A model generated the notes under the pieces. The model saw nothing but the letters and a program-made list of their open reading frames with translations, had not been told where the DNA came from and did not search any database. A DNA stretch of 64,000 nucleotides. It comes from Bacteroidia bacterium (GTDB taxonomy: Bacteria; Bacteroidota; Bacteroidia; Flavobacteriales_D; Cryomorphaceae). How positions within the stretch are numbered: the first letter of the stretch is position 1; the number at the start of each line of letters is the position of its first letter. A program made the translations under genes and the position numbers. Location: contig JAUICL010000003.1 in NCBI GenBank assembly GCA_030427905.1, positions 310,001-374,000 of the forward strand, in the 5' to 3' direction. Positions 16,541 through 40,374 of the stretch are shown piece after piece.

Positions 16541-16557
16541 TGTGTCAAATTCACACA
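16541..16557 (-). promoter_or_regulatory. candidate operator upstream of susC
   Basis: TGTGT-CAAATTC-ACACA: perfect 5-bp arms around a 7-bp spacer, 44-60 bp before the susC start. Read on the minus strand the spacer contains TGAATTTG, one base away from the Bacteroidota -7 box TAnnTTTG. A bound protein would therefore cover the promoter. It has the same geometry as the copies at 19435, 26901 and 40356. Confidence 0.65.
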
Positions 16558-16580
16558 TAGGTTTTATTCGCGGTTATCAC

Positions 16581-19424
16581 CTAGTTTTTAATGACGATTT
16601 TACTTGTATAGATCTCATTATCACAGATCATCCGTATCAAATAGAAACCAGCAGAAAGTTTTCCACCGTTTTCATCACGTCCATCCCAAAGAATTTCCTG
16701 CACCCCTTCGTTAAGATATCCAGTATGAATATTGGCTACTACACTCCCATTGATATCCAGCACATCTATTCTCCCTTGACTCGTTGATTCTGCCACATTA
16801 AAAAGAATGCGGGTTTGGTCAGTTACTGGATTGGGGAAAGCGCCAATTCTGAACTCAAGGGGTGAGTTTTTAATACCCTCAATTCCAACACTCAAATCGG
16901 GGGTTTCCAGCTCAGCATCGGTGTAAATGACATACTCGCCCGGTTGGAGCGAGATTGAAGCCGCAAGATCTGACACTTCAACCGCTTCACCCAACATATA
17001 ATTGTACCAGGAACCTGTATGGGTAAACCCAGGAACGATGTCGATAGGCGTCACGGCAAAGTTTGCAATGATCACGGCGTCCATTTCTTCATGCTCAATG
17101 ACCAATCTCTTTCCGCTACTTGAGACATCCCAGGTATAGTCTTGGCTCGCAAAGGTGGCGTTCTCATTTCTCAGCTTGTTGATAGCGGCATATACCTTAT
17201 AAAGGTAAAGTCGGTCCGCTTCATCGAGATAGTCCCAGCGGATTGGTTTATTGGCTGTTCGGCAATCTGGACTTATCGTCCCATCTGGACAGTGGTTGAT
17301 GCTGTAATCGTAACCCTGTTCTCCAAATTGCCAGATCATCTTTGGCCCTGGTAGTGGAAGAAACATAGCCGCCACCGCTTCTTGTCTTTGCAGAGCTGTG
17401 GGCAAGTCTGTCACATCGTAATCACCTGATGAGTTTCCATACTCCAGGTTTTTGAACATCAAACGCTCTTCATCATGGCTCTCGGCATAAGCTACGAGCT
17501 TAGGGTCGTCCCAGCCTCGGTTTTGATAATCGGCCCAATTCAGGTTACTCGAGTAGCCCATTGAAGCTTCGTTGTATTCATGGTTGATGTTTCCCCAGAG
17601 ATACATTCCTTCTTCTGCAAGTACTGTTTCTTCTGAATTGTCAGCGAAGTGCTCCAGTATTAAATAAACTTCAGGGTCATATTGAGCCACTTCGTCACGT
17701 ATGCGGGTCCAATGGTCTATTCGCGACTGATCGTATTGGCCCCAAGCTCCTACATCAGAAGAGTAGTTTTGAGTGAATCCTTTACTCAGGTCAAAGCGGA
17801 ACCCATCGATGTGATACTCTTCTACCCAAAATTGCAGGTTTCTCCTCATAAATTCTTGGGTATGCGGAGAGTCGTGGTTGTAGTCATACCCTACGTTGAA
17901 AGGGTGTTTTGCTTCCACATTAAAGAATGGGCTATTCTCAGCTGGTGGACCAGCCGGACCGCCACTTTGTGAATACATGCGGAGCTGCGGATTCTGGCCA
18001 AAGGAATGATTGAAAACGATATCTTGAATAACAGCGATACCATTTTGATGACAAGCATCTACCAGCGCTTTGAGATCGTCGCGTGTGCCGTAGTACTTGT
18101 CTGGCGCGAAGAAAAACATCGGGTTGTAGCCCCAGCTTTCATTCCCTTCAAACTCAGCGAATGGCATCAACTCTATCGCGTTAATTCCCAATTCAATGAG
18201 ATAAGGAAGACGGTCGATCACAGACTGATATGAGTGATCTTCGTCAAAATCGCGGATTAACAACTCATAAACCACCAAGTTAGACATATCAGGTCGCTCA
18301 AATTCTTCAACAACCCAGTCGTATGGAGCTTGGTTGGTTTCCAAAACAGAGACAATCTCTGATGTGAGTCCATCTGGATAGGGCTTCAAATTAGGATAAA
18401 TCGATTCTGGAATCCACTGATCGTTCCATGGGTCTAGAATCTTATCGGCATATGGATCCGCCACCCGCATTTGCTCCTGACCAATCACATACTGGAATGC
18501 GTATTCTACATTGGGTTCGAGACCCGATATTTCTAACCAGAACCGATCCCCTTCCGGAGTGATGTTCATAAAGTAATCGAGATCATTCTGCCAATTGTTG
18601 AAATCTCCAAACACATAGACAAAGTCTTTGAACGGAGCAAAAAGCTGAAGGACTACGGTCTCATCGTCGATGTAATTAATACCATCAACGGTTCCAGCTG
18701 GAGCAGCAGCCACTATCGGGTCGCCTTGGTATATAACCGGAACAGAATCAAACTTGGTTTCGGCTCCATTGGATGCTTCAAGCCAAATCCAGTATTGTCC
18801 CTGGCCCAATCCAGTGAAATCTACTTGCGTAGCAATATTGTCAGTCTCCGATTCTGTGTAGATTAGATCATCTCCTAAGTAGATTGAAAAAGATGATTCA
18901 GCATTTGCTGTGGCTTCGACATCTACGATTCCGGGATTTTCATTCGAGATGAGTGCTTCGAAAGGGTTGGTAATGAAAGCTGCATATTCTGATGAATACA
19001 AATCGACGAAAATATCGCCACCATCAGCGGCACGGCCTACAATAGACCCATTGGCATTCCGGAAAACAAATGCGAGCTGTTCTACCACATCACCTTCTTC
19101 TAATTCGTAAAAATCTGAAATATTGATGGTGAGTTCGTGAATATTGCTTCCTTGTGGCGACATCAGGACATTTGGATCTGCTGTACCCCATTCTCCCTGG
19201 ACGTTTTGCCAGCCTTCCTGCCCAGCTAACACTACCCCAGTGTGTGCGTACACGGGTACCACGCCTGTAAGATCGCCATTCCCCAAACTTGCATCGTAAA
19301 TGATGGTTACTTCATCATCTTGCGTAGCAAAAGTGGGGTCGAGTGTCACGACCTGAGCTCTGGAGCCAATCAAAAAAAGTAAAGCGCAAATCGTGAAACA
19401 GAATTTAAGGGATAATGTTCTCAT
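16581..19424 (-). CDS. secreted GH13 alpha-amylase with T9SS sorting domain
   Basis: A 947-residue exported alpha-glucan hydrolase. A signal peptide (about 1-23) is followed by beta-rich N-terminal modules and a CBM48-like module around 255-340 (Tyr-Val-Phe-Gly-Asp-Phe-Asn-Asn-Trp). The GH13 barrel spans about 375-790 and shows region I Asp-Ile-Val-Phe-Asn-His, region II Gly-Phe-Arg-Phe-Asp (nucleophile), region III Ile-Leu-Glu-His (acid/base) and region IV Ala-Glu-Ser-His-Asp. The last about 80 residues (Gly-Ala-Phe-Pro-Asn-Pro-Val-Thr-Asp to Lys-Ile-Val-Ile-Lys-Asn) form a type IX secretion sorting domain, so it is probably on the cell surface or released. A 7-bp-arm copy of the shared operator lies 10 bp before the start. 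Starch or glycogen is the likely substrate. Confidence 0.93.
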   Translation of the reverse strand: MRTLSLKFCFTICALLFLIGSRAQVVTLDPTFATQDDEVTIIYDASLGNGDLTGVVPVYAHTGVVLAGQEGWQNVQGEWGTADPNVLMSPQGSNIHELTINISDFYELEEGDVVEQLAFVFRNANGSIVGRAADGGDIFVDLYSSEYAAFITNPFEALISNENPGIVDVEATANAESSFSIYLGDDLIYTESETDNIATQVDFTGLGQGQYWIWLEASNGAETKFDSVPVIYQGDPIVAAAPAGTVDGINYIDDETVVLQLFAPFKDFVYVFGDFNNWQNDLDYFMNITPEGDRFWLEISGLEPNVEYAFQYVIGQEQMRVADPYADKILDPWNDQWIPESIYPNLKPYPDGLTSEIVSVLETNQAPYDWVVEEFERPDMSNLVVYELLIRDFDEDHSYQSVIDRLPYLIELGINAIELMPFAEFEGNESWGYNPMFFFAPDKYYGTRDDLKALVDACHQNGIAVIQDIVFNHSFGQNPQLRMYSQSGGPAGPPAENSPFFNVEAKHPFNVGYDYNHDSPHTQEFMRRNLQFWVEEYHIDGFRFDLSKGFTQNYSSDVGAWGQYDQSRIDHWTRIRDEVAQYDPEVYLILEHFADNSEETVLAEEGMYLWGNINHEYNEASMGYSSNLNWADYQNRGWDDPKLVAYAESHDEERLMFKNLEYGNSSGDYDVTDLPTALQRQEAVAAMFLPLPGPKMIWQFGEQGYDYSINHCPDGTISPDCRTANKPIRWDYLDEADRLYLYKVYAAINKLRNENATFASQDYTWDVSSSGKRLVIEHEEMDAVIIANFAVTPIDIVPGFTHTGSWYNYMLGEAVEVSDLAASISLQPGEYVIYTDAELETPDLSVGIEGIKNSPLEFRIGAFPNPVTDQTRILFNVAESTSQGRIDVLDINGSVVANIHTGYLNEGVQEILWDGRDENGGKLSAGFYLIRMICDNEIYTSKIVIKN

Positions 19425-19434
19425 AGTCTTTATT

Positions 19435-19455
19435 AAAGTGTCTAATGTACACTTT
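19435..19455 (-). promoter_or_regulatory. candidate operator upstream of the secreted amylase (best copy)
   Basis: AAAGTGT-CTAATGT-ACACTTT: perfect 7-bp arms around a 7-bp spacer, ending 10 bp before the amylase start. This is the most symmetrical copy of the palindrome shared with the susC, MFS and pfkA/regulator upstream regions. Confidence 0.72.
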
Positions 19456-21804: not shown

Positions 21805-23484
21805 TTATTCGACCATTAGCTTAAATACTGCTCGCTCATTGCTTTCATTCACAATGTTGAGGAAGTACAAGCCGCTAGTCAAGTCCGTGGTATTCAGTTC
21901 AAATCGGGTAGAATTGATTACCGTAAAGTCTCTTACTTCTTTTCCAGTGATATCGATGATATTCATGCGAAGCGTGTGACCATTTGGATTTTCGAGCTCC
22001 AAGTATGTCACTCCGTTCGTTGGGTTCGGGAAAAGGTTTACGTTTCCGAGTTCTAGGTCAGAGGTAGAAAGTGGCTCGCAAGAGTTGAATGCAACAGCGT
22101 CGAGAATTTCATCTTCTCCGCTTCTTGTATGCGTTCTATTAAATCCACCAATTCCATTATCAACTCCACAACCACCAGTTGCAAAATCTCCACTTTCTTC
22201 GTTTTCAGGAGTGTTCACATCTCCATTAACGAACTTGTATTGAATATCAGCTGGACCATCAATTTCAACAGTAACTTCAAAGATACCATCAGAATCATCA
22301 TCTGACATTGCCAAGGCTCCACCTTGCCAAGCTGGGTTTGTAAATCCACCCATAAGGAAAACGCCATCACCTGAAACAGTCTCGTCATTCATATCAACAC
22401 GGAAGGTAATGTTGGCTGGATCTGGATCCAAAACACACTCTTCAGTACATTGATTAAAGCAAGCCAAATAAGTAATCGGATCTTCTCCAACGTCTACGAA
22501 ACGGTTTCCGTTCTGATTACAAGCAGGAGGTACAGATTCTCCAAAGTCCCAGCTATTTCCGTTAACGAATTTGAATTCATAGAGACCCTGATCTACCATC
22601 AAAACAACTTCATAAATTCCATCTGAATCATCATCAGTCATAGCAGTAGCACCCGGCAACCACCCTTGAAACGCTCCAGCGACACTTACACCATCTGGGT
22701 TTGCTCCTTCTTGGCTCAAGTCAACTTGAAAAGTAACTTCGGTCTGCGGCGCACAAAGGTCGCAAGTACCATAACAGTATGCATCTGTAGTAAGGTCTTC
22801 AGAACCAACAACAGCTTGTCTGTTTCCATCGACAGCACAACCATCTGGAACGGCTTCATCCATTCCCCAGTCATTACCGTTGATGAATTTGTATGCGTAA
22901 GAAGCTTCAGGAGCCACATTTGCTACAAAAGCGTATTTCCCATTTGCAACTTCGAATGCTTTAGAAAGCTGTGGAGTCCATTCTGGGTTTGAAAAGTTAC
23001 CAGCAACGTGTACACCTAAGTCTCCCACTTCTTGATTTGCCATATCAATCATGAGTCTTACAGCCACTTCTCCAGCTGGGGCTGAACCACCCCAAGTGAT
23101 AGCAGGTAAAACCAATCCATCAGTGGCGTGCCAATCGCTAATTGCAAAAACGCGATTATCGTTTCCACCACCTTTTTGGTTTACTAAAGGAACACTTTCC
23201 ACACCTGGCCAATCGTTGTCGTTCACAAACTTGTATTCGTATTGTCCAGCAGGAAGAGATGCAGTATACTCATAGATTCCATCGCTATCTCCATCAGTCA
23301 ACTCAGCTGTACCGGGCTGCCAGTCACCAGGAAGGCCAGCGGCCGCTTGCCAATTACCAGCTACATGAAGACCATTATCAGACACAGTCTGACCGGTCAT
23401 ATCAACGCGAAAAGTCACGTCGACTTGCGCCAGTAGGGAAGTCCCAAAAAGGCCAGCCAACGCCATTAAGTAGATTTTCTTCAT
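21805..23484 (-). CDS. secreted protein with four starch-binding-like repeats and T9SS sorting domain
   Basis: A 559-residue exported protein: signal peptide (about 1-20), then four related modules of about 100 residues beginning near residues 22, 138, 247 and 357. Each starts with Val-Thr-Phe-x-Val-Asp-Met/Leu or close variants, continues with a Gly-Val-x-Val-Ala-Gly-x-Phe turn, an Asp-Asp-Asp-Ser-Asp-Gly-Ile-Tyr-Glu acidic turn and Tyr-x-x-Lys-Phe-Val-Asn-Gly-Asn. This is the pattern of starch-binding CBM20/CBM48-like beta sandwiches. Modules 2 and 3 are followed by Cys-containing Gly-Asn-Arg-x-x-x-Val-Gly segments. A T9SS sorting domain starts near Leu-Phe-Pro-Asn-Pro-Thr-Asn-Gly (about 483-490). 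No catalytic domain is present, so it probably holds starch at the surface, like a SusE/SusF substitute. Confidence 0.88.
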   Translation of the reverse strand: MKKIYLMALAGLFGTSLLAQVDVTFRVDMTGQTVSDNGLHVAGNWQAAAGLPGDWQPGTAELTDGDSDGIYEYTASLPAGQYEYKFVNDNDWPGVESVPLVNQKGGGNDNRVFAISDWHATDGLVLPAITWGGSAPAGEVAVRLMIDMANQEVGDLGVHVAGNFSNPEWTPQLSKAFEVANGKYAFVANVAPEASYAYKFINGNDWGMDEAVPDGCAVDGNRQAVVGSEDLTTDAYCYGTCDLCAPQTEVTFQVDLSQEGANPDGVSVAGAFQGWLPGATAMTDDDSDGIYEVVLMVDQGLYEFKFVNGNSWDFGESVPPACNQNGNRFVDVGEDPITYLACFNQCTEECVLDPDPANITFRVDMNDETVSGDGVFLMGGFTNPAWQGGALAMSDDDSDGIFEVTVEIDGPADIQYKFVNGDVNTPENEESGDFATGGCGVDNGIGGFNRTHTRSGEDEILDAVAFNSCEPLSTSDLELGNVNLFPNPTNGVTYLELENPNGHTLRMNIIDITGKEVRDFTVINSTRFELNTTDLTSGLYFLNIVNESNERAVFKLMVE

Positions 23485-23514
23485 AATATCTTAATTAAGG
23501 ATTGTGATTTAGTT

Positions 23515-23531
23515 ATTGTTCTTTTTACACT
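23515..23531 (-). promoter_or_regulatory. degenerate operator copy upstream of the starch-binding-repeat gene
   Basis: ATTGT-TCTTTTT-ACACT matches the shared xGTGT-N7-ACACx pattern with one arm mismatch. It lies directly downstream of the minus-strand promoter box at 23534-23541, where a repressor would block the transcription start. It is in the divergent region with the GH13 gene at 23614 and could serve both. Confidence 0.4.
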
Positions 23532-23533
23532 AA

Positions 23534-23613: not shown

Positions 23614-25473
23614 ATGCATTACCACCACCCCAACAATACATTCATTCATGCACTCCTTACTGCTGTATTGGTATGCGTAGGACATTTCTACAGTTTTGAA
23701 TCAAATGCTCAAGGCTTTGAACATGTCGATCCGCCCTACTGGTGGACAGGAATGCCGAGCGACACATTGGAAATTCTAATCCATGAAACGAATATTGGTC
23801 ACGTCGAGCTAAAAATTGAGACACCACAGGGCGTGGAATGGATCGAGAACAAAAGGTTTGAGAACCCAAACTACCAATTGATCAAAGTGAGTATTGGTGA
23901 AAAGGCAAAGCCTGGAACGATCCATATTTCAGGAAAGGCGAAAGGAAAAAAGTACAAGCATGACTATCCTATCGAGGCCAGAGATGCGAACCCGCTTGGG
24001 CTCAATGGATCGGATGTGGTATACCTTATCACCCCTGATCGCTTTGCAAACGGAGACGTGAAAAACGATGCCCTCGATGGTTTTCATCAAAACACCGTTG
24101 ACCGAGATGAACCTTACGAGCGCCATGGAGGGGATATACAAGGCATACTAGACCACTTAGATTACATCGAAGAACTGAACATGACGGCCTTGTGGATCAA
24201 CCCTCTACTGGAGAATGACCAGCCACATGAGTCATATCACGGGTACGCCATAACCAATAGCTTCGAGATTGACCAACGATTTGGCACAAACGAATTGTAT
24301 CGCAAATTGATCGATGAGCTACATAGTCGGGATATGAAGATCATTCAAGATGTGATCTACAATCACATAGGAAATGAGCACTACTTGTACTCCGACATGC
24401 CCGACTCCACATGGTTTCACTTTTGGCCTGAGTTTCAAAGAACCAATTACAGAGCACCATCCTTAATGGATCCCTACGCTTCTGAACACGATAGATCTAT
24501 CATGACCGACGGCTGGTTTGACAAACATATGCCCGACTTAAACCAGCAGAACCCGCATGTGGCTCGCTATTTCATCCAACAAACCATTTGGTGGATCGAA
24601 GCCTTCCACATTGACGCCTTGCGCATTGACACCTACGCATACCCCGATCAAGGATTTATGCGCACGTGGGGGCAAGAATTGAAAGCTGCCTTCCCCGATC
24701 TTTTTCTATTTGCAGAAACGTGGGTGCATGGCCCTACGGTTCAAGGGTGGTTCGTAGGCAATGCCCTAGCACCAGCCCCCAACTACATCGATGGCGTGAC
24801 CGATTTTCAAGTATACTACGCCATCAACGATGCCTTGACCAGAGATCAGGGCTGGGCCGAAGGACTTTCGCGATTGTACTACACCCTTTCAGCCGATTAC
24901 ATCTACGAAGAACCCAATGATCTGGTCACTTTTCTGGATAATCACGATCTCGCCAGGTTTTTAGGCTATGTAAACGGAGACTTAAACAAGATGAAAATCG
25001 GTCTCGGCTGGTTGTACACTCTTCGTGGAATTCCGAGTGTATACTACGGTACTGAGATTTTGATGAAGGAAACCGATGGCCACGGCAAGATTCGCGAAGA
25101 CTTCCCAGGCGGATGGGCGGCCGACAGCCTCAATAAATCCACACCTACCATGCGCAGTTCATCTGAGAATGAGATTTTCGACTGCATCAAATCGCTGGGC
25201 CAATTGCGCAAGGAAAGCACGGCTATCCAGAACGGCAACACAACACAGTTTGTACCGGTAGATGACGTTTATGTCTACTTTCGATATGATGAAAATGAGA
25301 CTTATATGATCATAACAAACGCTGGAAAAAAGGAGCGTGAAGTGAAGATGGATCGATTCGAAGAACAACTGAAGGGTCAAAAAACGGGAACCCTACTGAA
25401 CGGTAGCTCCGTGGAGTGGACTGATGTAATGACACTGCCGCCATTCACGCAGCATATACTTAGGATTCGGTAG
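23614..25473 (+). CDS. periplasmic GH13 cyclomaltodextrinase/neopullulanase (SusA-like)
   Basis: A 619-residue enzyme with a signal peptide ending near Ser-Asn-Ala-Gln-Gly (about 33). An N-terminal cyclomaltodextrinase-type beta domain (about 35-125, Pro-Tyr-Trp-Trp-Thr-Gly-Met) precedes the GH13 barrel: region I Asp-Val-Ile-Tyr-Asn-His, region II Ala-Leu-Arg-Ile-Asp (nucleophile), region III Leu-Phe-Ala-Glu-Thr-Trp (acid/base), region IV Phe-Leu-Asp-Asn-His-Asp. There is no lipobox and no T9SS domain, so a periplasmic location is likely. It would cut imported maltodextrins and cyclodextrins to maltose-size products. It is divergent from the repeat gene and its 3' end overlaps the MFS gene by 14 bp tail to tail. 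Confidence 0.9.
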   Translation: MHYHHPNNTFIHALLTAVLVCVGHFYSFESNAQGFEHVDPPYWWTGMPSDTLEILIHETNIGHVELKIETPQGVEWIENKRFENPNYQLIKVSIGEKAKPGTIHISGKAKGKKYKHDYPIEARDANPLGLNGSDVVYLITPDRFANGDVKNDALDGFHQNTVDRDEPYERHGGDIQGILDHLDYIEELNMTALWINPLLENDQPHESYHGYAITNSFEIDQRFGTNELYRKLIDELHSRDMKIIQDVIYNHIGNEHYLYSDMPDSTWFHFWPEFQRTNYRAPSLMDPYASEHDRSIMTDGWFDKHMPDLNQQNPHVARYFIQQTIWWIEAFHIDALRIDTYAYPDQGFMRTWGQELKAAFPDLFLFAETWVHGPTVQGWFVGNALAPAPNYIDGVTDFQVYYAINDALTRDQGWAEGLSRLYYTLSADYIYEEPNDLVTFLDNHDLARFLGYVNGDLNKMKIGLGWLYTLRGIPSVYYGTEILMKETDGHGKIREDFPGGWAADSLNKSTPTMRSSSENEIFDCIKSLGQLRKESTAIQNGNTTQFVPVDDVYVYFRYDENETYMIITNAGKKEREVKMDRFEEQLKGQKTGTLLNGSSVEWTDVMTLPPFTQHILRIR

Positions 25474-26857: not shown

Positions 26858-26900
26858 CGTATTTTTTTAGTTCAGGAGCGGAAGATAGGAAATTTCTTAG

Positions 26901-26917: not shown

Positions 26918-26930
26918 ATTCAAACCCTAT

Positions 26931-28541: not shown

Positions 28542-30191
<1,650 letters not shown>

Positions 30192-31253: not shown

Positions 31254-31291
31254 GATAATACGAGTGGTTAACTTCAATTAATAGATTGGTG

Positions 31292-31299
31292 CAAAACTA
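31292..31299 (-). promoter_or_regulatory. -7 promoter box upstream of fba
   Basis: Reads TAGTTTTG on the minus strand, a match to TAnnTTTG, 39-46 bp before the fba ATG. A TTTG lies 25 bp further upstream (31325-31328), somewhat far for a -33 box. This suggests fba-pgi can be transcribed separately from the mgsA-to-pfkA genes. No shared operator is seen here. Confidence 0.45.
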
Positions 31300-31355
31300 A
31301 CCGAAAAGGAAGAATTGAGTCCCTCAAATCGAACAGAAATTAAGGTCGAATAGAA

Positions 31356-31736: not shown

Positions 31737-33115
31737 TTGGCGTAATATACGTGATATTCAAAAGGCTTCAACTCATATCCACCAGTAAGTGCAGATAAAT
31801 CGGGACTTTCAAACAACGCTTCGAAGATCCCATCAGGCATTCCTTCTATTTTGACTTGCTCGGGAGCATCCGAAAAATTGCATATTACAATCACCTTGCT
31901 ATCATCTTTGGCACGTACGAAGGCGTACACATCTTCATCAGCGCCAGTCTCGAGTCTTTCGAAACTTCCGCGATGTGTACCGTTCCAAAGGGCAGGCTGA
32001 TTTTGATTTAACTGAAGCAGCTTGGTATAGAAATCTTGTAATTGATAATCACCCCACTCGATGGTGTCTTTCTCGAAGAATTCTAGCGCATAGTCCATTC
32101 CTGCTTCTTGTCCGGAGTAGAGTAATGGCATGCCGGCAATAGTATAAGCTAATACCGCATAGGTTTTATGGCCTTCTTCACCGTAGCGCTCCATCACCGT
32201 ACCATTCCATGAGTTCTCATCGTGGTTTGTAGTGAAGTACATTCTATAGTCCTTTTTGGCGAAGTTGGTGTCTTCCTTCGCAAGGTAATTATCAAGGTCG
32301 TTCAAGTTCATCTCTCCTTTAGCGATATGATTGATGATATGCATAAACTCCCAAGCATACCCCATATCAAATGCCTTTTCTTGCAGTTCGGGAGATTCAG
32401 CTTCAGCGAGCATAAATACATCCGGACGAACACGCTCTAGGCTATCGCGGCAATCGTTCCAGAACTCAACTGGTACCATACTAGCCACATCACAACGAAA
32501 ACCGTCAACGTTATATTCGCTCAGCCAGTATTGCATCGAAGCGATCATCTCAGCTCTCATTTCAGGGTTTTCATAGTCCAAGTCGGCTACATCCCACCAA
32601 TCGGTACCCGCAGGTGGCTGAAGATTTCCTAACGAGTCTAAATTGTACCATTCTTTGTGAGTTTCAGTCCACACATTATCGAAAGCACTGTGGTTAGCTA
32701 CCCAGTCAATGATCACCTTCATGCCCAAACTATGAGCCTTTTCAACGAGCTCGTGAAAATCTTCCTCCGTACCAAACTCCGGGTTGATTCCCTTGTAATC
32801 TTTTACAGAATAATAACTCCCCTTTTCACCCTTTCTATTCTCTTCTCCAATGGGGTGGATTGGCATCAACCATATAATGGTAATTCCCATGTCTTTGATT
32901 CGCTCCAAATCAGCGGTAAACGCATCAAAAGTTCCTTCGGGGGAGTACTGACGAATATTAGCTTCGTAAATCGTGGCGTTCTTTGACCAAGCATCGTGCG
33001 ATGTAGCCACCTGAGCTTCGGGAGTTTCATCATTCTTTTCGACCTTCGTACTTTCTCCTGTACTACAGGAAATCAAAGCAGCGATAGGAATGGCGAGAAA
33101 AAAATTCTTGAGCAT
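31733..33115 (-). CDS. GH13 alpha-amylase lipoprotein
   Basis: A 460-residue glycoside hydrolase. Lipobox Ala-Leu-Ile-Ser-Cys (Cys17) is followed by a short acidic linker and a single GH13 barrel. Regions: I Asp-Trp-Val-Ala-Asn-His, II Gly-Phe-Arg-Cys-Asp (nucleophile), III Met-Leu-Ala-Glu-Ala (acid/base), IV Thr-Thr-Asn-His-Asp. No extra starch-binding module is seen. It is probably periplasmic or surface-anchored and trims maltodextrins alongside its neighbour, one base away. The compact size recalls SusG-related oligosaccharide-active members. Confidence 0.92.
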   Translation of the reverse strand: MLKNFFLAIPIAALISCSTGESTKVEKNDETPEAQVATSHDAWSKNATIYEANIRQYSPEGTFDAFTADLERIKDMGITIIWLMPIHPIGEENRKGEKGSYYSVKDYKGINPEFGTEEDFHELVEKAHSLGMKVIIDWVANHSAFDNVWTETHKEWYNLDSLGNLQPPAGTDWWDVADLDYENPEMRAEMIASMQYWLSEYNVDGFRCDVASMVPVEFWNDCRDSLERVRPDVFMLAEAESPELQEKAFDMGYAWEFMHIINHIAKGEMNLNDLDNYLAKEDTNFAKKDYRMYFTTNHDENSWNGTVMERYGEEGHKTYAVLAYTIAGMPLLYSGQEAGMDYALEFFEKDTIEWGDYQLQDFYTKLLQLNQNQPALWNGTHRGSFERLETGADEDVYAFVRAKDDSKVIVICNFSDAPEQVKIEGMPDGIFEALFESPDLSALTGGYELKPFEYHVYYAK

Positions 33116-33116
33116 A

Positions 33117-35501
33117 TTATTGGGTTAAAATTTCAAATGATTGTGGTTCAAGGTCGATTCGGAGCTTACCACCTTCTTGTGTAAACGCCGAACCAAAATG
33201 CGATGCAAAAATGGAATTCAAATGCGGCTTATCTAGGTCAATTTCAACGGTGGTTTCAGAGCCCGTATTAAAAAACACGAGTACAGACTCACCGAGGTAA
33301 GTTCTGGCATAAGCATACACATGCTCATCTAAGTAGAGCCTTTGGAGCTCACCATAGTTCAGCGGCATTAACTCTTTCCGGAGCTTAGTAATTTTACGAA
33401 CTGTTTGAAGAAGTTCAACTTCTGTACTGTCGAGCTGGTCGCCAAAACGCATCATACGACGATTGTCTGGATCATTAGCTCCTACCATTCCAAACTCATC
33501 GCCATAATAGATGACTGGAATACCAGGGATCGTAAAGTTGAACGCATGAAGCATGGCCAATTTTCTATATCCTTCTGTACCGTTGGGCTCAATATCTCTT
33601 GTCCAGCCTGCATTCTTCGGATCTTCAGAAAAATCTACCGAACCATCAGCATATGAAATGAACCGCGTTCGATCTTGATTACCAGACATATTGCCCATCA
33701 AATGGTGCGAACCATATACACTCAACCCCTCCTTTAAGACCCGATCGAGATTAGCCAAGTCGCCGTCTTCCTTTGCAAAGGCATTTACGGCGGCGTCATA
33801 GAGATTAAAATCAAACTGAGCATCGAGAAGACCTGTACCAATATAGCTGTCAATCAATTTTGGGTTTCCATAGGTTTCCCCAATTTGAAAAATTGGTCGG
33901 CTATCTGGGATAACCACTTGACTCTTCAGCTTGTACGTCAATTCTCTCCAAAACTTTGTCGGGATATGCTTCGTGGCATCGTGTCTAAATCCATCAATTT
34001 CAAAACTCTTGAACCAATACAGCGCTGAATCGGTCATTGCTTCAACTACTTCATCTTTCCGAAGATCAAGAGTAGGAAGGAAGGTATCGAACCAAGTGGT
34101 CAACCTGTGTTCGTCCCATCTTTCAGTATTGAGTGATCCATCTGGCAGGTATAGGTCTGTGGCCCACTCAGGGTGGTTCTGATACACGGGGTGATCTTGA
34201 TGCACGTGGTTGGCAACATAGTCGAGCAGAATGTTTTGATCGCTTTGGTGGACACTAGCAATCAGATCAGTCAATTCCTGGTTCGTACCGAAGCGGAAAT
34301 CAACCTTTGAAGACGATGCTGGCCAATACCCATGGTAGCCAGAAAACTTGCTACGCACACCGTTTTTATCCCACAAACCATAGGCGCCTATTGGATTTAA
34401 GCCTATTGGCGACAGCCAAACCGTATTGACATTCAGCCCATCGAAATAACCTTGGTTTAAAACGGAATCTATACCTGTGAGATCACCTCCCATGTAATTT
34501 GCCAACGGGTGAATCTCCGGGTCATCAACAGGGTGATCGTTAGCCGTATCGCCATTAAAGAATCGATCAACCATCAAAAAGTACATCGAATACGCATGCT
34601 TATCCGTTCGATCAATCTGAGAAGTGGATTGAACCGGTGTACCATCTGCCAGCGGGATGAGAATATCGTTGGTCATTCCACCTGGGCCATACCCCACTAC
34701 AGACAAGTGGGCGCGCGCTTTGCTGGATTGAATCTTGGGAAGTCTAAGAACTAAGGAGTCTGCTCTTCGCTCCCAATACGTTGCTGGTAGAAGTTGATTT
34801 TCAACTCTAATCAATGGGTCTGCCAGAACTGACGAGTAGTCGATAAAGCAAGTGCGCTGCTCCGAATCGTACCCAAGGGATGCAATATGAACGGGGTCAC
34901 TGGTTTCGCCTACCTGAAATGTGGAGTTCTCTCCACCCATTCCATTGTCCTTTTTGTTTGAATTAGTTCGATCGAGCATTTCCACCCCATCTTCTACGAT
35001 GAGATACTCGTAAAGGCCTGGACTCAGATTCAACGTCGTTGTCCAACTGCTACCATCCCGATCTAAAACAGTAGCATTTGCATTCCATCCATTAAAGCTC
35101 CCTTTTATTCGGACATCTGCCACGGCTAGGCTTGTCGCTTCATAAGCGAATTCCACTTTTTCAATGTCACTCCCGAGCACTGGAACAACGTACTGCTGCC
35201 CTTTGTAGCCTAGGTGCATGGTGCTGAGCAGGTGGTGCTTCGATCCAGACCACAACTCTACAATTCCATGCTCAGCATCGAAAGTGTAATGCATATCGTC
35301 TGAGAATGAAATCGAATCAACTTGATCTGCGTAAAGGACATAGTCTTGGATGTAAACTATTGTCGTATCCGGCTGAAGCTTGATTGGGCTTGCGACACCT
35401 ACAATATCCTGCCCTATCTCCATCGTCTCTTCGACTACTTGCTCCGAAGAACAGGCTGCAAGAAAAATGATGGCTAATAGAGCTATGCTCGTTTTTTTCA
35501 T
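33117..35501 (-). CDS. GH13 amylase lipoprotein with N-terminal CBM48-like module
   Basis: A 794-residue enzyme with lipobox Phe-Leu-Ala-Ala-Cys (Cys17). After a beta-rich N-terminal region comes a CBM48-like module (about 125-200, Lys-Gly-Ser-Phe-Asn-Gly-Trp). Then the GH13 barrel: region I Asp-Tyr-Val-Ala-Asn-His, region II Gly-Phe-Arg-His-Asp (nucleophile), region III Gln-Ile-Gly-Glu-Thr (acid/base), region IV Ser-Gly-Asn-Gln-Asp-Arg. Region IV has Gln where most GH13 enzymes have the transition-state His of Asn-His-Asp. That may be a subfamily trait, but it could change activity. It starts inside the end of the GH65 gene (4-bp overlap). Confidence 0.9.
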   Translation of the reverse strand: MKKTSIALLAIIFLAACSSEQVVEETMEIGQDIVGVASPIKLQPDTTIVYIQDYVLYADQVDSISFSDDMHYTFDAEHGIVELWSGSKHHLLSTMHLGYKGQQYVVPVLGSDIEKVEFAYEATSLAVADVRIKGSFNGWNANATVLDRDGSSWTTTLNLSPGLYEYLIVEDGVEMLDRTNSNKKDNGMGGENSTFQVGETSDPVHIASLGYDSEQRTCFIDYSSVLADPLIRVENQLLPATYWERRADSLVLRLPKIQSSKARAHLSVVGYGPGGMTNDILIPLADGTPVQSTSQIDRTDKHAYSMYFLMVDRFFNGDTANDHPVDDPEIHPLANYMGGDLTGIDSVLNQGYFDGLNVNTVWLSPIGLNPIGAYGLWDKNGVRSKFSGYHGYWPASSSKVDFRFGTNQELTDLIASVHQSDQNILLDYVANHVHQDHPVYQNHPEWATDLYLPDGSLNTERWDEHRLTTWFDTFLPTLDLRKDEVVEAMTDSALYWFKSFEIDGFRHDATKHIPTKFWRELTYKLKSQVVIPDSRPIFQIGETYGNPKLIDSYIGTGLLDAQFDFNLYDAAVNAFAKEDGDLANLDRVLKEGLSVYGSHHLMGNMSGNQDRTRFISYADGSVDFSEDPKNAGWTRDIEPNGTEGYRKLAMLHAFNFTIPGIPVIYYGDEFGMVGANDPDNRRMMRFGDQLDSTEVELLQTVRKITKLRKELMPLNYGELQRLYLDEHVYAYARTYLGESVLVFFNTGSETTVEIDLDKPHLNSIFASHFGSAFTQEGGKLRIDLEPQSFEILTQ

Positions 35502-37807
35502 CTTTTTCGGTTTACATCAACGCTATCTCGCCCCGCTATCTCGTAGGTGGTTCCATAAACATCTACCGCCATCGATTCACCTGATTGGTTTGAAATCTTG
35601 ACTTTATCCTGATCCACCTCAAGTACCACGGTTGATTCTCTGTACAAAATGCTAAACTTGAAGCTATCCCATTCTTTGGGTAGCCTAGGACTAAAGGAAA
35701 GTCTGCCATCCACTACGCGCTTTCCTCCAAAGCCTTCAACCACGGCCATCCATGTACCCGCCATCGATGTGATATGCAGACCTTCGTCGGCTTCATGGTT
35801 GTAGTCGTCCAAATCTAGTCTGGCTGTACGCAGATACATTTCGTAGGCCTTTTCATCCATACCGAGTTTGCTAGCCAAGACGGCATGTACACAGGGTGAA
35901 AGTGATGATTCGTGAACTGTTCTGGGCTCGTAGTAGAGAAAGTTATCGCGTATCGTTGCTTCATCAAAGTGATCTTCGAAGAAGTACATTCCTTGAAGCA
36001 CATCAGCCTGCTTGATAAAGATAGAGCGCAAAATCCGGTCCCAAGACCAGTTTTGATTAATCGGCCTTTCGGAAGCGGGAAGATCATCTACTGTCAAATC
36101 CACTTTATCGAGAAAACCATCTTGTTGTAGAAAAATGTTCGTTCCATCGAGTTTGGGCTGGTACATTTTCGATGAAATATCGCTCCATGTACTCAACTCA
36201 TCTTCTTTGAAATTGGTCTTAGCAACGAAATCAGACCAGAAACGATCGTCGGACATGCATGCCTTAGCGGCATCTCTAGTGTATTCTAAGGTCCACTTGG
36301 CTATGTAGTTTGTGTACCAATTGTTGTTGACGTTGTTTTCGTATTCGTTTGGCCCTGTCACTCCAAGCATCACGTACTTTTCACGTAGTTTGCTCCAATT
36401 CACACGTTGCGCCCAGAATCTGGAAATACCAAGCAAAACTTCCAATCCACCTTCCTTCAGATAATTTTGATCGCCACTGTGATCTATGTAGTTTTTGATT
36501 GCAAAGGCAATGGCACCATTTCGGTGAATTTCTTCAAAAGTGATTTCCCATTCGTTGTGGCACTCTTCACCATTCATGGTAACCATAGGGTAAAGCGCCG
36601 CCCCGTCGGTGAAGCCTAGCTTCCCAGCGTTTTGAATGGCCTTATCGAGTTGCTTATAACGATATAGCAGGAGCTTTTTTGCCACATCATTTCCCGCTGT
36701 AAGCATGTAAAAAGGTAGGCAATATGCTTCGGTGTCCCAATAAGTAGACCCTCCGTACTTTTCACCGGTAAAGCCTTTGGGGCCAATATTCAGTCTATCA
36801 TCAGCTCCAGTGTAAGTTTGACTGAGTTGGAAAATATTGAACCGAATTGCCTGCTGCGCCGCTACGTCTCCTTCAATAATGATATCGTTGTTTGCCCATC
36901 GGTTCCGCCAATTTTCAGCGTGCCTTTGTAGCATTTCATTAAAGCCAATTTCTTTTGCACGGCTTGCGGCTTCAATGGATTTAGAGCTTAGCTCACTCAA
37001 TGAATAATTAAGTGATGACACGTTGGATGCGTACTTGAGAACTGCGATCTCATCACCCTGAGCTATAGAGATGTCAAAGACATTTTCAACGTATTTCTCC
37101 GTTGATGCTTCTACACTCGAAAGGTCTAGTTCGTCGCCATTTTTAGTCAGCACTATTTGCTGAGCGGTACTCACATGGAAATCCAGTTTTTTGGTCTTCA
37201 TCGTAAGCTCAGATCCATGTGCCCATGTCTGCTTACTTACTTCAGCCCAAAACTTCTCATCGTAATTCGAGTCTTGATTGACTATATCTCCATCTATAGC
37301 TGCAGCAATCTTAAGTTTTCCCGAATAGTTTCGCGACTTGATTGTATACTTGATTGCGGCGGTTTCATCATCGGCCATACTCATAAAACGGATGCTCTCT
37401 ACATCGAGCTCAGCGCCATTCTTTAGCTTAGCGGTGAACACCCTCTTGAGTGTTCCGGCCCTCATATCAAGTTCTCTCCTGAAATTGGAGACCTGAGCCG
37501 TGGCTAGATCGAGCTTTTCGCCTTCTATCTCGGGCTGAATGATGATCCAATTGGCGGCATTGAGCACTTTCGCAAAGTACTCCGGATAGCCGTTTTTCCA
37601 CCACCCAACTCTAGTCTTGTCTGGATAATAGACTCCGGCTATGTAATTTCCTTGAAGGGTTTCTCCAGAATACCCTTCTTCAAAGTTTGCACGCTGGCCC
37701 ATTCGGCCATTTCCAAGGCTAAAAATACTTTCCGAAGACATTTGCATCTCTGGATGAAAGCCTTCTTCAACAATAGACCACGGTTCTTCTTTATAATGCT
37801 TTTTCAT
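35498..37807 (-). CDS. GH65 maltose phosphorylase
   Basis: A 769-residue cytoplasmic phosphorylase without a signal peptide. The central alpha/alpha barrel carries Gly-Glu-Glu-Cys-His-Asn-Glu-Trp-Glu-Ile-Thr-Phe-Glu-Glu-Ile-His-Arg-Asn-Gly (about 417-435), which includes the general-acid Glu and matches the maltose-phosphorylase rather than the trehalose-phosphorylase branch. The C-terminal Gly-Ala/Gly-Thr-Trp and beta-sheet domains follow. The reaction is maltose plus phosphate to glucose plus beta-glucose-1-phosphate. PgmB, encoded 9 bp upstream, is the usual partner consuming the phosphate ester. Kojibiose or nigerose specificity cannot be excluded, but the GH13 and SusCD context supports maltose. 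Confidence 0.93.
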   Translation of the reverse strand: MKKHYKEEPWSIVEEGFHPEMQMSSESIFSLGNGRMGQRANFEEGYSGETLQGNYIAGVYYPDKTRVGWWKNGYPEYFAKVLNAANWIIIQPEIEGEKLDLATAQVSNFRRELDMRAGTLKRVFTAKLKNGAELDVESIRFMSMADDETAAIKYTIKSRNYSGKLKIAAAIDGDIVNQDSNYDEKFWAEVSKQTWAHGSELTMKTKKLDFHVSTAQQIVLTKNGDELDLSSVEASTEKYVENVFDISIAQGDEIAVLKYASNVSSLNYSLSELSSKSIEAASRAKEIGFNEMLQRHAENWRNRWANNDIIIEGDVAAQQAIRFNIFQLSQTYTGADDRLNIGPKGFTGEKYGGSTYWDTEAYCLPFYMLTAGNDVAKKLLLYRYKQLDKAIQNAGKLGFTDGAALYPMVTMNGEECHNEWEITFEEIHRNGAIAFAIKNYIDHSGDQNYLKEGGLEVLLGISRFWAQRVNWSKLREKYVMLGVTGPNEYENNVNNNWYTNYIAKWTLEYTRDAAKACMSDDRFWSDFVAKTNFKEDELSTWSDISSKMYQPKLDGTNIFLQQDGFLDKVDLTVDDLPASERPINQNWSWDRILRSIFIKQADVLQGMYFFEDHFDEATIRDNFLYYEPRTVHESSLSPCVHAVLASKLGMDEKAYEMYLRTARLDLDDYNHEADEGLHITSMAGTWMAVVEGFGGKRVVDGRLSFSPRLPKEWDSFKFSILYRESTVVLEVDQDKVKISNQSGESMAVDVYGTTYEIAGRDSVDVNRKR

Positions 37808-37816
37808 CTGCTTTGG

Positions 37817-38467
37817 TTAAAGCCTATTGAACAATTTTAAATCTTGGTTCTCAAAACCTGGGATCACCACATGAGCACGGTCAAGCACAGTTTCGTCACC
37901 AACACCTATGGTATACATTCCACCTCTATTGCCTGCTTCTACACCAGCTTGAGAGTCTTCAAAAACTACACACTCTGATGGATGAGCTCCTGTGGCTTCC
38001 GCACCAAGGGTGAAGGTCTGCGGATCGGGTTTACCTTTAGACACTTTGGTTCCGTCAATCACGGCGTCAAAATAAGGGAGCAATTCCACTTTTTTCAAAA
38101 TGAGCATCGCGTTTTTACTCGCACTTCCCAAAGCGATTTTTATCCCCGCACCCTTTAAAAGATCCAAAAAGTGAACTACTCCTGGTAAAATTTCATCAGG
38201 GTTCATCGAATCGACAAATTCCAGGTACCAGTCATTCTTTTTAACCAGCCATTCATCCTTTTCTTCCTGAGTCAGGATCACTCCACCCAATTTGAGTAAT
38301 ATCTCGAGTGACTCTACCCGACTGATACCCTTGAGCGATTCGTTCTCTTCTTCTGTGAGGTCAAAACCGAGCTCATTACAGAGCCTTCTCCAAGCCAGAA
38401 AGTGATACTTGGCTGTATCGACAATTACCCCATCTAAATCAAAAAGACAAGCTTTGATATCAGCCAT
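37817..38467 (-). CDS. pgmB: beta-phosphoglucomutase
   Basis: From the ATG at 38467 it has 216 residues, the usual size. The longer frame to 38521 lies inside the kinase gene and begins without family similarity. It converts beta-glucose-1-phosphate to glucose-6-phosphate. HAD-fold motifs: Phe-Asp-Leu-Asp-Gly-Val-Ile-Val-Asp (nucleophile Asp10, acid/base Asp12), Leu-Gly-Ser-Ala-Ser-Lys-Asn (about 115-121), Lys-Gly-Lys-Pro-Asp-Pro (about 146-151) and Phe-Glu-Asp-Ser-Gln-Ala-Gly (about 168-174). The start overlaps the kinase stop by 8 bp, consistent with coupled translation. It sits beside GH65, as expected. Confidence 0.95.
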   Translation of the reverse strand: MADIKACLFDLDGVIVDTAKYHFLAWRRLCNELGFDLTEEENESLKGISRVESLEILLKLGGVILTQEEKDEWLVKKNDWYLEFVDSMNPDEILPGVVHFLDLLKGAGIKIALGSASKNAMLILKKVELLPYFDAVIDGTKVSKGKPDPQTFTLGAEATGAHPSECVVFEDSQAGVEAGNRGGMYTIGVGDETVLDRAHVVIPGFENQDLKLFNRL

Positions 38468-39329
38468 TAAAAGGAATTTTTGAAAAATAGTGCTTAATGT
38501 GATAATTGTAGAGACCTTCAATCGGTTTCTTTACAATTCTACCGATTCTAACATTCAATTCAGCTGCCACTTTTCGAAGCGTGTCTTCATGAAAATAGGC
38601 AACCGAACCGATAAAGTTTGTCTCCATATTTTGATAGTCGCGTACGCACTGAACATGCGTTTGCATAAACTCCTTGAGTCCTGAATAGATCATATTTTGA
38701 ACATAAGGCTCATTCTTTCTTTCTGTGATAAACCGCATAAATGAAGCGAGGTACACGTTGGCATGCGGCTTCATGTACACACGATCCATGATTACGTCTT
38801 TGTTCAGACCAAACTCATCAATCAAATCACTATGGATGTTTTCTGGTAGTCGCTTGTAGAGAAAATCTGTCAAAAGCTTTTTCCCGAAATAGCTCCCACT
38901 CCCTTCATCACCAAGAATGTAGGCCAATGCCGGCACATCTTCACGTACAATATCACCATCAAAATGGCAGGAATTGGATCCAGTCCCCAATATACAAGCA
39001 ATACACGGCTCATCTTCATACACAGCAAAAGCCGCTGCTACCAAATCGTGATCTACGTAGATCTGTGCATTTGTAAATATGGCGCCCAATCCTCGATCAA
39101 CAATGCGCTTGAGCTCTACTGATGAGCAACCTGCTCCATAAAAAAAGACGGCTGAAACTTTGTCGGCATATTCGAGCAACCCATCACTCTGATCTAGGAA
39201 TGACTTTATCATTCTCTCGTCATGGAAGTATGGATTTATACCCGGCGATTTAAAATCCTGGTAGGATTTATCTTCAGCCACCAATCTCCAATCACATTTC
39301 GTCGATCCACTATCGGCAATTAATAACAT
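38460..39329 (-). CDS. BadF/BadG-type sugar kinase (NagK-like)
   Basis: A 289-residue ASKHA-fold kinase. The phosphate-1 loop is Ile-Ala-Asp-Ser-Gly-Ser-Thr-Lys-Cys-Asp-Trp (residues 4-14). The second ATP-binding segment is Ile-Leu-Gly-Thr-Gly-Ser-Asn-Ser (about 111-118), followed by Gly-Asp-Glu-Gly-Ser-Gly-Ser-Tyr-Phe-Gly-Lys (about 137-147). Family members are annotated as N-acetylglucosamine kinases. In this operon, between pfkA and pgmB and with maltose phosphorylase releasing free glucose, a glucokinase role is a reasonable inference, because no other sugar kinase is seen. No GlcNAc-specific gene is nearby. Confidence 0.88.
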   Translation of the reverse strand: MLLIADSGSTKCDWRLVAEDKSYQDFKSPGINPYFHDERMIKSFLDQSDGLLEYADKVSAVFFYGAGCSSVELKRIVDRGLGAIFTNAQIYVDHDLVAAAFAVYEDEPCIACILGTGSNSCHFDGDIVREDVPALAYILGDEGSGSYFGKKLLTDFLYKRLPENIHSDLIDEFGLNKDVIMDRVYMKPHANVYLASFMRFITERKNEPYVQNMIYSGLKEFMQTHVQCVRDYQNMETNFIGSVAYFHEDTLRKVAAELNVRIGRIVKKPIEGLYNYHIKHYFSKIPFNG

Positions 39330-39355
39330 ATCTTCTTTTTGTTTCTCAGTTCATT

Positions 39356-40336
39356 TTAGATTGACAGGATATCAGCGATTCTGATAAGCTCCTGATCAAG
39401 TGTCAACTTATCCGAAATAGCATCTGAAAACGGTGTCAACACAATCTTTTGATTGATCATTCCCACCATGCAATCTCTTTTTCCTTGCAGAAGGTTTTCA
39501 ACTGCAGCAACCCCCAAACGGCTGGCCAAATTCCGGTCAAAACAAGAAGGCGACCCTCCGCGTTGGATATGCCCCAAGATGGTAACCTTGGTGTCGTAAT
39601 ACGGAGCGAGTTCGTTTACTCTTCTGGCTATTTCAGTAGCGTTACCACTTTTCCCTCCTTCGGCAACTATCACGATAGACGAAGACTTATTATGCCTTCT
39701 GGCTTCATTGAGCCGTTCTACAAGTTGCTCTATTTTCATTTCTCTTTCGGGAATGAGAACAGCCAAGGCCCCAGACGCCACCCCAGCGTGGGCAGCTATG
39801 AAGCCGGCATCTCTACCCATTACTTCCACAAAGAACAACCTATTGTGCGAAGCAGCGGTATCTCGAATCTTGTCGACGGCATCTACTACTGTGTTCAAAG
39901 CCGTGTCAAAACCAATGGTGTAATCTGTACCGACAAGGTCATTGTCTATGGTGCCAGGCACGCCAATGATCGGAAAATCAAATTCTTTATTAAAAGTATG
40001 AGCCCCGGTGAATGTACCATCACCACCAATGGCCACGATGGCATCAATGCCATTCGATTTCAACTTTTCGTAGGCTCTTTCACGACCGGCCTTTTCTCTA
40101 AAATCAGCGCTTCTAGCCGATTTCAAGAAGGTTCCGCCGCGCTGTAGAATTTGATTTACAGAGCGCGCACTCAAGGCTTCTATATCACCTTCTATGAGTC
40201 CTTGATACCCTCGAAAAATCCCTCCAACTTGCAGATTATTGTAAATTGCCGTACGCACTACAGCACGTACAGCAGCATTCATACCGGGGGCATCACCTCC
40301 CGATGTAAACACGGCAATTTTTTTTATTGAATTCAT
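39356..40336 (-). CDS. pfkA: ATP-dependent 6-phosphofructokinase
   Basis: From the ATG at 40336 (which begins MNSIKKIAVFTSGGDAPGMN, the standard PfkA start) it has 326 residues. It phosphorylates fructose-6-phosphate to fructose-1,6-bisphosphate. Motifs: Thr-Ser-Gly-Gly-Asp-Ala-Pro-Gly-Met-Asn, Gly-Gly-Asp-Gly-Thr-Phe for ATP, the catalytic loop Gly-Thr-Ile-Asp-Asn-Asp, and Val-Glu-Val-Met-Gly-Arg. It is the first gene of the minus-strand operon running to mgsA, with the shared operator 20 bp before its start. A frame from 40372 would run across that operator and is rejected. Confidence 0.95.
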   Translation of the reverse strand: MNSIKKIAVFTSGGDAPGMNAAVRAVVRTAIYNNLQVGGIFRGYQGLIEGDIEALSARSVNQILQRGGTFLKSARSADFREKAGRERAYEKLKSNGIDAIVAIGGDGTFTGAHTFNKEFDFPIIGVPGTIDNDLVGTDYTIGFDTALNTVVDAVDKIRDTAASHNRLFFVEVMGRDAGFIAAHAGVASGALAVLIPEREMKIEQLVERLNEARRHNKSSSIVIVAEGGKSGNATEIARRVNELAPYYDTKVTILGHIQRGGSPSCFDRNLASRLGVAAVENLLQGKRDCMVGMINQKIVLTPFSDAISDKLTLDQELIRIADILSI

Positions 40337-40355
40337 GAAGTGCTGATGAGCAATA

Positions 40356-40374
40356 AAGTGTAAATATAACACTT
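40356..40374. promoter_or_regulatory. candidate operator in the pfkA/regulator divergent promoter
   Basis: AAGTGT-AAATATA-ACACTT: perfect 6-bp arms with a 7-bp spacer, between pfkA (minus) and the NrtR-like regulator (plus). On the minus strand the spacer region reads TATATTTA, one base off TAnnTTTG, with TTTC 19 bases before it, so the operator overlaps the likely pfkA promoter. A further AGTGT at 40379-40383 extends the array (ACACT-N5-AGTGT), suggesting more than one binding position and possible autoregulation. Confidence 0.68.

Follow-up and report, generated by a model that had tools for sequence, protein, structure and literature searches.

A conserved GTGT-N7-ACAC palindrome and the NrtR/AraR-family regulator that very probably binds it: a candidate central-carbon switch in Flavobacteriales and relatives

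A palindrome with the core GTGT-N7-ACAC recurs before starch and sugar genes in a 64,000-nucleotide stretch from a Bacteroidia bacterium of the Cryomorphaceae (assembly GCA_030427905.1, contig JAUICL010000003.1, positions 310,001 to 374,000), which is referred to as the window. Very probably, a single regulator binds the palindrome: the NrtR/AraR-type protein encoded at 40453 in the window, which is a candidate central-carbon switch in Flavobacteriales and relatives. In our full proposal, in which we place high confidence, the palindrome would be the operator through which this protein represses sugar use, probably activates gluconeogenesis, and is released by a sugar signal. Sequence comparison supports the predicted identity of the operator, its ownership by the regulator, its position relative to promoters, and the membership of the starch, pfkA, pckA (phosphoenolpyruvate carboxykinase), gap (glyceraldehyde-3-phosphate dehydrogenase, GAPDH), and gdhA (here the Glu/Leu/Phe/Val dehydrogenase family) genes in the regulon. 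The genome of the window (G000, the own genome below) comprises 3.81 Mb in 13 contigs.

Conservation of the palindrome

The exact core occurs four times in the window, before susC, the secreted amylase gene, and the gene of a major facilitator superfamily (MFS) transporter and between pfkA and the regulator gene (Table 1), while shuffling of the window gave a mean of 0.66 copies and at least four copies in 2 of 100 shuffles. These four places had been listed in the initial annotation together with a one-mismatch copy, which is also present; a sixth copy, TAGTGT-N7-ACATTA, was absent from that list. The comparison of orthologous regions that had been proposed there was borne out in the relative G003, in which all five listed sites lie at orthologous places. 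The starch proteins of G003 are 50–65% identical to those of the window, and pfkA and the regulator are 81% identical. At the five sites the arms agree at 10, 11, 12, 10, and 12 of 12 positions, the spacers at 3, 4, 7, 1, and 4 of 7, and the flanks at 8–24 of 40. Such arms, kept around a mostly free spacer, are the pattern of a dimer's operator.

Matches to the regulator were found in 46 of 60 relatives. Among the 29 related regulator loci examined (L027–L055), 23 have the exact core in the stretch that separates the regulator from the pfkA or kinase gene. The other six are two loci with one-mismatch copies (L041 and L042), two with Asn-type regulators (L038 and L040), one contig end (L027), and one distant Thr-type regulator with TTGT-N7-ACAA (L055). 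The longer word WAGTGT-N7-ACACTW was counted in 20 of 28 genomes with the regulator and 10 of 14 without any match, chosen for completeness and spread: there are 117 exact copies in the former (19 for the reversed control) and 4 in the latter (control, 10). In genus g20, G025 and G037 have 16 and 15 exact sites and G045, which has no regulator match, has none; in family f8, the numbers are 3, 4, and 3 in G040, G048, and G057 and zero in G024, G030, and G036, which have no regulator. Genomes with a single NrtR-type match (G010, G015, and G025) contain 3, 7, and 16 exact sites, respectively.

Several observations weigh against this assignment. In the own genome, the core is found at 30 places (reversed pattern, 43), AAGTGT-N7-ACACTT with two mismatches or fewer at 158 (reversed, 265), and WAGTGT-N7-ACACTW with at most one mismatch at 24 (reversed, 61); degenerate versions of the motif are therefore not enriched over reversed controls across the genome. 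Within the window, AAGTGT-N7-ACACTT with up to three mismatches stands at chance level (35 versus 29.8 expected). NrtR paralogues may also own some of the sites. Because the core and degenerate forms fall below their reversed controls, counts alone prove nothing. Own-genome counts, which show no enrichment unless the word is exact and long, were rejected as evidence, and the case is carried by conservation.

The 30 core places comprise 20 within open reading frames (ORFs) and 10 before genes; the short ORFs that the pckA and gdhA copies touch were discounted in this split. Besides the four in the window, the non-coding cores precede pckA, gap, ppdk (pyruvate phosphate dikinase), gdhA, the gene of the ribonucleotide reductase small chain, and a recQ/aminotransferase pair. 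In the last case the own genome (L019:2556) and G003 (L183:2278) agree in having the operator between recQ and a class IV aminotransferase gene. The exact long word occurs at four places in 3.8 Mb, before pckA, the amylase gene, pfkA/regulator, and gdhA. Among the places examined, intergenic one-mismatch copies of WAGTGT-N7-ACACTW beyond these ten sites lie near genes of thioredoxin-like, DUF11, and unknown proteins. No arabinose gene stands directly beside the ten non-coding cores (direct neighbours, with degenerate sites covered in part); in regulon content the protein does not qualify as an orthologue of the arabinose regulator AraR.

The regulator and its recognition residue

The regulator has the NrtR family architecture, an N-terminal Nudix-like domain followed by a C-terminal NrtR winged helix, with Pfam matches to NrtR_WHD (1.4e-27), AraR_C (1.7e-13), and NUDIX (4.9e-6) that are all above cut-off. 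It is the only NrtR_WHD match in the own genome. In a sequence search of the PDB, the closest entry was BtAraR (BT0354) of Bacteroides thetaiotaomicron (E value of 1.9e-40), and a Foldseek search with the AlphaFold2 (AF2) model (predicted local distance difference test score, 85.9) ranked AraR structures best, with 5bs6 first, and then SoNrtR (3gz6). The strand bound in the BtAraR–DNA crystal contains GTGT and ACAC with seven bases between them (PMC4666351). When the residue numbering was matched by hand via KRNFRK, Lys179, Arg180, Asn181, and Arg183 of BtAraR proved identical in the window regulator, Lys184 is replaced by Arg, and the wing pair Lys204/Arg205 differs. The ascription of the palindrome to the 40453 protein in the initial annotation is upheld by the shared core and spacer, the kept base-reading residues, the exact cores beside the regulator in relatives, the scarcity of sites where the regulator is missing, and the co-variation of residue and operator described below. 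The predicted binding of regulator to operator is well supported by the same comparisons.

By eye, the Nudix signature reads RVLNEL where REUXEE is expected; therefore, the Nudix domain is probably a sensor rather than an enzyme. The residues of the arabinose triad of BtAraR (Arg34, Arg86, and His131) are all present in the window protein, also by eye. Arg34 is Gln in relatives of families f9 and f4, and the triad was rejected as proof of the effector because of this variation. A D-x2-WL insertion, which is not in the aligned BtAraR and SoNrtR sequences, was rejected as a marker of linkage to glycolysis because 26 of 44 unlinked proteins have it as well.

Lys179 contacts the first G of GTGT in the BtAraR crystal (PMC4666351), and a specificity switch is therefore expected at that residue. 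The 109 regulators with enough upstream DNA (110 loci less L279, an Arg type with under 60 bases upstream) were sorted by the residue at this position. GTGT-N7-ACAC lies within 250 bp upstream in 66 of 98 members of the Lys class and 0 of 7 of the Asn class; this is the raw count, in which the script classed L045 as L and L303 as "?" although both have Lys and a GTGT operator, and it includes near-copies from regions fetched twice (L034/L238, L031/L236, L042/L249, and L027/L235). Fisher's test, on 67 of 99 for the Lys class, gave a p value of 0.0006. A single clade, drawn from Bacteroidales and other Bacteroidota metagenome-assembled genomes (MAGs), accounts for five of the seven Asn proteins, with RCGT-N7-ACGY shortly before each of the five regulator genes, against a background of 9 copies in 490,673 bases over 80 loci. 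The other two (family f3; G033 and G050) branch elsewhere in the tree as a second Asn lineage. Here, the RCGT palindrome directly precedes a susC (29–34% identical to that of the window) in the same starch cluster, 5–8 kb from the regulator, and none was found beside the regulator itself. It also precedes susC in G056, of the same genus as G033, the regulator of which is not established as Asn-type. The arms of the predicted operator thus change with the recognition residue, Asn-type regulators going with RCGT-N7-ACGY. Two points count against this pairing: the relaxed RCGT pattern stays below its control in both G033 (1 versus 11) and G050 (5 versus 8), and no RCGT site was found at the pckA, gap, and gdhA loci of these two genomes. 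TTGT-N7-ACAA was dropped as the mark of a third residue class, since it occurs at the Thr-type L055 and the Pro-type L273 but also at the Lys-type L300.

A tree was built from 112 proteins, and for 66 of its rows the fetched flank includes a pfkA, gap, kinase, or starch-type gene. These rows spread across Flavobacteriales, Marivirga, and a separate, well-supported clade of Mucilaginibacter and relatives, with other Bacteroidota interleaved, and the linkage label changes 7 times, versus a mean of 35.8 after shuffling. BtAraR falls in a group with three further proteins, apart from the main group, and SoNrtR takes the outermost position; BtAraR and SoNrtR are both on long branches. Many relatives (G001, G003, G031, G037, and others) have a second NrtR-type paralogue with about 31–48% identity, and in G033:C52 an exact GTGT operator lies directly beside a 31% identical one. 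Three MAG contigs titled Chryseobacterium gleum (L241, L269, and L301) fall in two different parts of the tree, and their organism labels seem doubtful.

Membership of the regulon

A weight matrix was built from 22 regulator-side sites of relatives and applied to 400 bp upstream and 30 bp inside each gene with a threshold of at least 9; pckA of G010 and gdhA of G052 (no upstream sequence) and G030 (no gdhA match) were dropped. Sites were found before pckA in 11 of 19 genomes with the regulator and 0 of 10 without (Fisher p = 0.002), before gap in 9 of 20 and 0 of 10 (p = 0.012), and before gdhA in 10 of 19 and 0 of 9 (p = 0.007). The top score without the regulator was 8.3 (gdhA of G017), and control stretches from the middle of genes did not exceed 8.3. 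In family f9, gap is located behind pfkA, so that no gap site of its own is expected there, and the gap matches in f8 and f3 are only about 47–51% identical.

Against these memberships, the p values are overstated because related genomes are not independent, no pckA site was found in 8 of the 19 regulator genomes, and ppdk is present in 3 of 30 relatives with scores of 6.3, 0.9, and -2.2 (4.6 in the own genome). As a conserved member, ppdk is weak; it is perhaps in the regulon, the exact core in the own genome being the sole pointer.

Forty further exact sites, excluding those of pfkA, pckA, gap, and gdhA, were collected from G001, G003, G004, G015, G025, G031, G048, and G052, and 35 of them lie between genes by ORF calls. 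The neighbours of 30 were scanned, and 14 are carbohydrate or central-carbon genes: pgi, glgE, isocitrate dehydrogenase, one E1-alpha-type and one E1-beta-type dehydrogenase component, five of the alpha-amylase family, two X25/CBM, susC, and GH16. The other 16 have no evident link to carbon, which also speaks against the assignment; they are lectins (2), dnaA, SHMT (serine hydroxymethyltransferase)/DUF255, PagL-like, polyketide-cyclase-like, ketoacyl synthase III, two aminotransferase cases, and seven without a Pfam match. The lectins are legume-lectin-domain proteins of G025 and G031 (L220 and L179). In G025, which is complete in one contig, 9 of the 16 exact sites stand before genes of carbon or starch use, including pfkA, pckA, gdhA, amylase, pgi, glgE, and idh. 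The description of the protein as a regulator of the starch locus is right in that starch genes are among its predicted targets and too narrow in that genes of glycolysis and gluconeogenesis (pfkA, gap, pckA, and gdhA) are among them too.

Operator position and proposed mechanism

Flavobacterial sigma-A promoters have a -7 box with the consensus TAnnTTTG (PMC9723704). For susC, X25, and gap of the own genome, the operator lies over or directly next to a promoter call, and for pckA and ppdk it lies well upstream of a perfect -7 box. At gdhA, the operator is just upstream of a TTG-N18-TACCTTTG promoter, and another box is nearer to the gene. No convincing promoter box was found upstream of the amylase and MFS genes. 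One rule was used for all relatives, with the distance taken from the site centre to the -7 box. At pfkA, 34 of 46 loci have a site (the own locus and near-copies included), with a median of -8 and 25 of the 34 between -24 and +10. The medians are +3 for gap (n = 9, with -17 and +51 among the values), -119 for pckA (n = 11, from -56 to -177), and -86.5 for gdhA (n = 10, from -53 to -109). The predicted operator thus tends, in silico, to lie over the promoter at glycolytic genes and upstream of it at gluconeogenic genes. This tendency is weakened by the nature of the promoter calls, which are consensus matches, by pfkA sites more than 30 bp upstream (6 of 34) or downstream (3 of 34) of the called box, and by the best gap matches in f8 (G040, G048, and G057; about 50% identical), where the site is upstream, at -25 to -47. 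A helical phasing of the upstream sites seemed discernible but is not claimed.

TrmBL1 of Pyrococcus furiosus represses when bound downstream of promoter elements and activates when bound upstream (PMC4706686), and BtAraR loses DNA upon binding arabinose (PMC4666351). From the TrmBL1-like layout and this release, we infer the sign of regulation at each promoter, the activation, and the effector; the simplest model is one in which the sugar-free form represses sugar use and activates gluconeogenesis. The dimer would contact the two GTGT half-sites through its winged helices. When sugar is scarce, it would sit on or beside the promoters of pfkA (a probable operon including fba and pgi), gap, susC, and X25 and repress them; from sites upstream of the promoters of pckA and gdhA (and probably of ppdk) it would probably activate the gluconeogenic genes. 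Release would follow when the Nudix pocket, which is catalytically impaired, takes up a sugar or sugar phosphate, as L-arabinose frees BtAraR from its DNA; starch uptake and glycolysis would then be switched on and gluconeogenesis switched off.

Alternative explanations

The most serious alternative, to which we give about one chance in three, is a pure repressor, the upstream sites of pckA and gdhA acting by looping, through unrecognised upstream promoters, or by some other form of repression. L-arabinose acts on BtAraR as a negative effector, and a repressor function has been described for several further NrtR regulators (PMC4666351); the promoter-like box near the gdhA site of the own genome and the upstream f8 gap site, although GAPDH is mainly glycolytic, would also fit. 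Dual action is preferred since in relatives from several families all 21 sites at pckA and gdhA precede the best promoter call, at -53 to -177, most pfkA sites lie close to theirs, and the genes split by physiological direction.

It is unlikely that the effector is a nucleotide (ADP-ribose or NAD), so that the regulon would report redox or NAD state instead of sugar. The founding NrtR members do respond to ADP-ribose or NAD (PMC4666351), but the regulator scores 109.4 against a cut-off of 400 bits for the NAD-type NrtR equivalog (NCBIfam NF050029), its closest structure is the sugar-binding AraR, and no NAD gene was found among the direct neighbours of the ten non-coding cores.

That the palindrome serves another factor controlling the same genes, be it CRP-like, LacI-type, or other, is very improbable. 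In Bacteroides, a protein of the Crp family is listed as a regulator for multiple sugars (PMC3878776), and the initial annotation gave LacI-type maltose regulators as usual in this group. It had itself rejected a LacI site, correctly: the protein is of NrtR type, and the palindrome is an odd-length 19 bp with a 7-bp spacer equal to that of the AraR operator. Moreover, few sites exist where the regulator is missing, none of them before pckA, gap, or gdhA, and the arms vary with the recognition residue. Chance recurrence of a short palindrome, with which the genome-wide counts of core and degenerate forms would agree, is scarcely credible given the contrast between genomes with and without the regulator and the conservation of arms over spacers and flanks; conservation of the arms at orthologous places, which speaks against chance, was observed in G003.

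Comparison with known systems

The regulator resembles BtAraR in its Nudix-like and NrtR winged helix-turn-helix domains, the GTGT-N7-ACAC operator, most base-reading residues, the tandem sites at some promoters, and the control of SusCD genes (PMC4666351). It differs in that BtAraR regulates arabinose genes and the window protein would serve starch and central carbon, and in the D-x2-WL insertion. BtXylR (BT0791), compared by its description, shares the family and phylum and is a xylose regulator (PMC4666351). SoNrtR and the NAD-type NrtR proteins share the fold (3gz5/3gz6) and differ in NAD metabolism, ADP-ribose, and the equivalog cut-off, which the window protein does not reach. TrmBL1 is alike in placing one palindrome before genes of sugar uptake, glycolysis, and gluconeogenesis in a position-dependent layout; it is archaeal, of the unrelated TrmB family, with the operator TATCAC-N5-GTGATA (PMC4706686). 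Crp (BT4338) of Bacteroides, also compared by description, is likewise a multi-sugar regulator of Bacteroidota, of the Crp family (PMC3878776). HexR and CceR are central-carbon regulators in Proteobacteria (PMC5507952), and that text mentions neither NrtR nor Nudix. The two papers that bear on the question deal with AraR and XylR in the use of pentoses (PMC4666351, PMC3878776). In titles and abstract openings of the open-licence literature, no description was found of an NrtR/Nudix regulator that controls glycolysis, gluconeogenesis, or the use of starch in Bacteroidota; an earlier prediction is possible.

Bacteroidota are known for the breakdown of polysaccharides. In Enterobacteria, Cra/FruR represses glycolysis and activates gluconeogenesis; this split is shared with the proposed switch, and Cra/FruR differs in belonging to the LacI family and in its even-length operator. 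We lean, with reservations, towards the wider view that one lineage within the NrtR family is a dual central-carbon switch across Bacteroidota, which arose independently of Cra and TrmBL1 and whose operator drifted with one residue (Lys with GTGT, Asn with RCGT) at least twice. The analysis names a candidate central-carbon regulator of Bacteroidota with its operator and targets, and it points to a natural code linking residue and base in a DNA-binding family in which BtAraR is the sole sugar-responsive member with a structure among the PDB matches compared. It also indicates that regulons can be read from MAGs.

Features of the window

Table 1 Predicted operators, regulators, and genes (window coordinates unless loci are given).
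Feature	Position	Strand	Basis or remark
Operator 5' of susC	16540..16558	.	Window scan, promoter calls, G003 comparison; exact core 16542-16556
Operator 5' of secreted amylase	19436..19454	.	Window scan, G003 comparison; exact core 19438-19452
One-mismatch operator between X25 and cyclomaltodextrinase genes	23514..23532	.	Identical 19-mer at same place in G003; similar in G004
Operator 5' of MFS transporter	26900..26918	.	Window scan; present in G003 and G004; exact core 26902-26916
Operator AAGTGT-N7-ACACTT between pfkA and regulator	40356..40374	.	Window scan; kept in relatives; exact core 40358-40372
Weaker second operator TAGTGT-N7-ACATTA, 3 bp from first	40378..40396	.	Weight matrix score 12.3; no counterpart at G003 position
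SusD	11995..13398	-	Profile match
SusC	13402..16497	-	TIGR04056, 8.1e-216
Secreted alpha-amylase-family protein with type IX secretion system (T9SS) tail	16581..19424	-	Profile matches
X25/CBM starch-binding T9SS protein	21805..23484	-	Pfam
Cyclomaltodextrinase-like GH13	23614..25473	+	Pfam
MFS transporter, weakly GPH-sucrose-like	25460..26857	-	Profile matches
Rest of probable pfkA operon	28542..39329	-	Gene order kept in G003; operon deduced from spacing
6-Phosphofructokinase, pfkA	39356..40372	-	TIGR02482, 5e-128
NrtR/AraR-type regulator, impaired Nudix domain and winged helix-turn-helix, 251 aa	40453..41208	+	Pfam, PDB, AF2
Asn-type regulators with RCGT-N7-ACGY upstream	L252, L254, L268, L276, L287		Bacteroidota

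Judged from the sequence, the true start of pfkA is likely the ATG at 40336, and the operator therefore lies just upstream of pfkA and not inside it. The rest of its probable operon encodes a NagK-like kinase, beta-phosphoglucomutase, GH65, two GH13 proteins, an MGS-domain protein, class II fructose-bisphosphate aldolase, and phosphoglucose isomerase. The susC and MFS copies had been reported at equal distances from their start codons, and the distance is indeed 45 bp for both; it is about 54 and 42 bp in G003, so that the equality is probably coincidental and no evidence for a regulator. A GC-rich inverted repeat 5' of the MFS gene (GGCGGCC-N3-GGCCGCC, 26942-26958), with a similar hairpin at the same place in G003, is a probable terminator of a neighbouring gene. 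The kinase-like protein of the operon (38460-39329, 289 aa) has no Pfam match at 0.001 and a NagK match below cut-off. The counterpart of its gene adjoins the regulator or pfkA in many loci and stands beside the regulator even where the fetched flank contains no pfkA (G040 and G048). The protein is possibly a glucokinase for glucose released by the GH65 enzyme.

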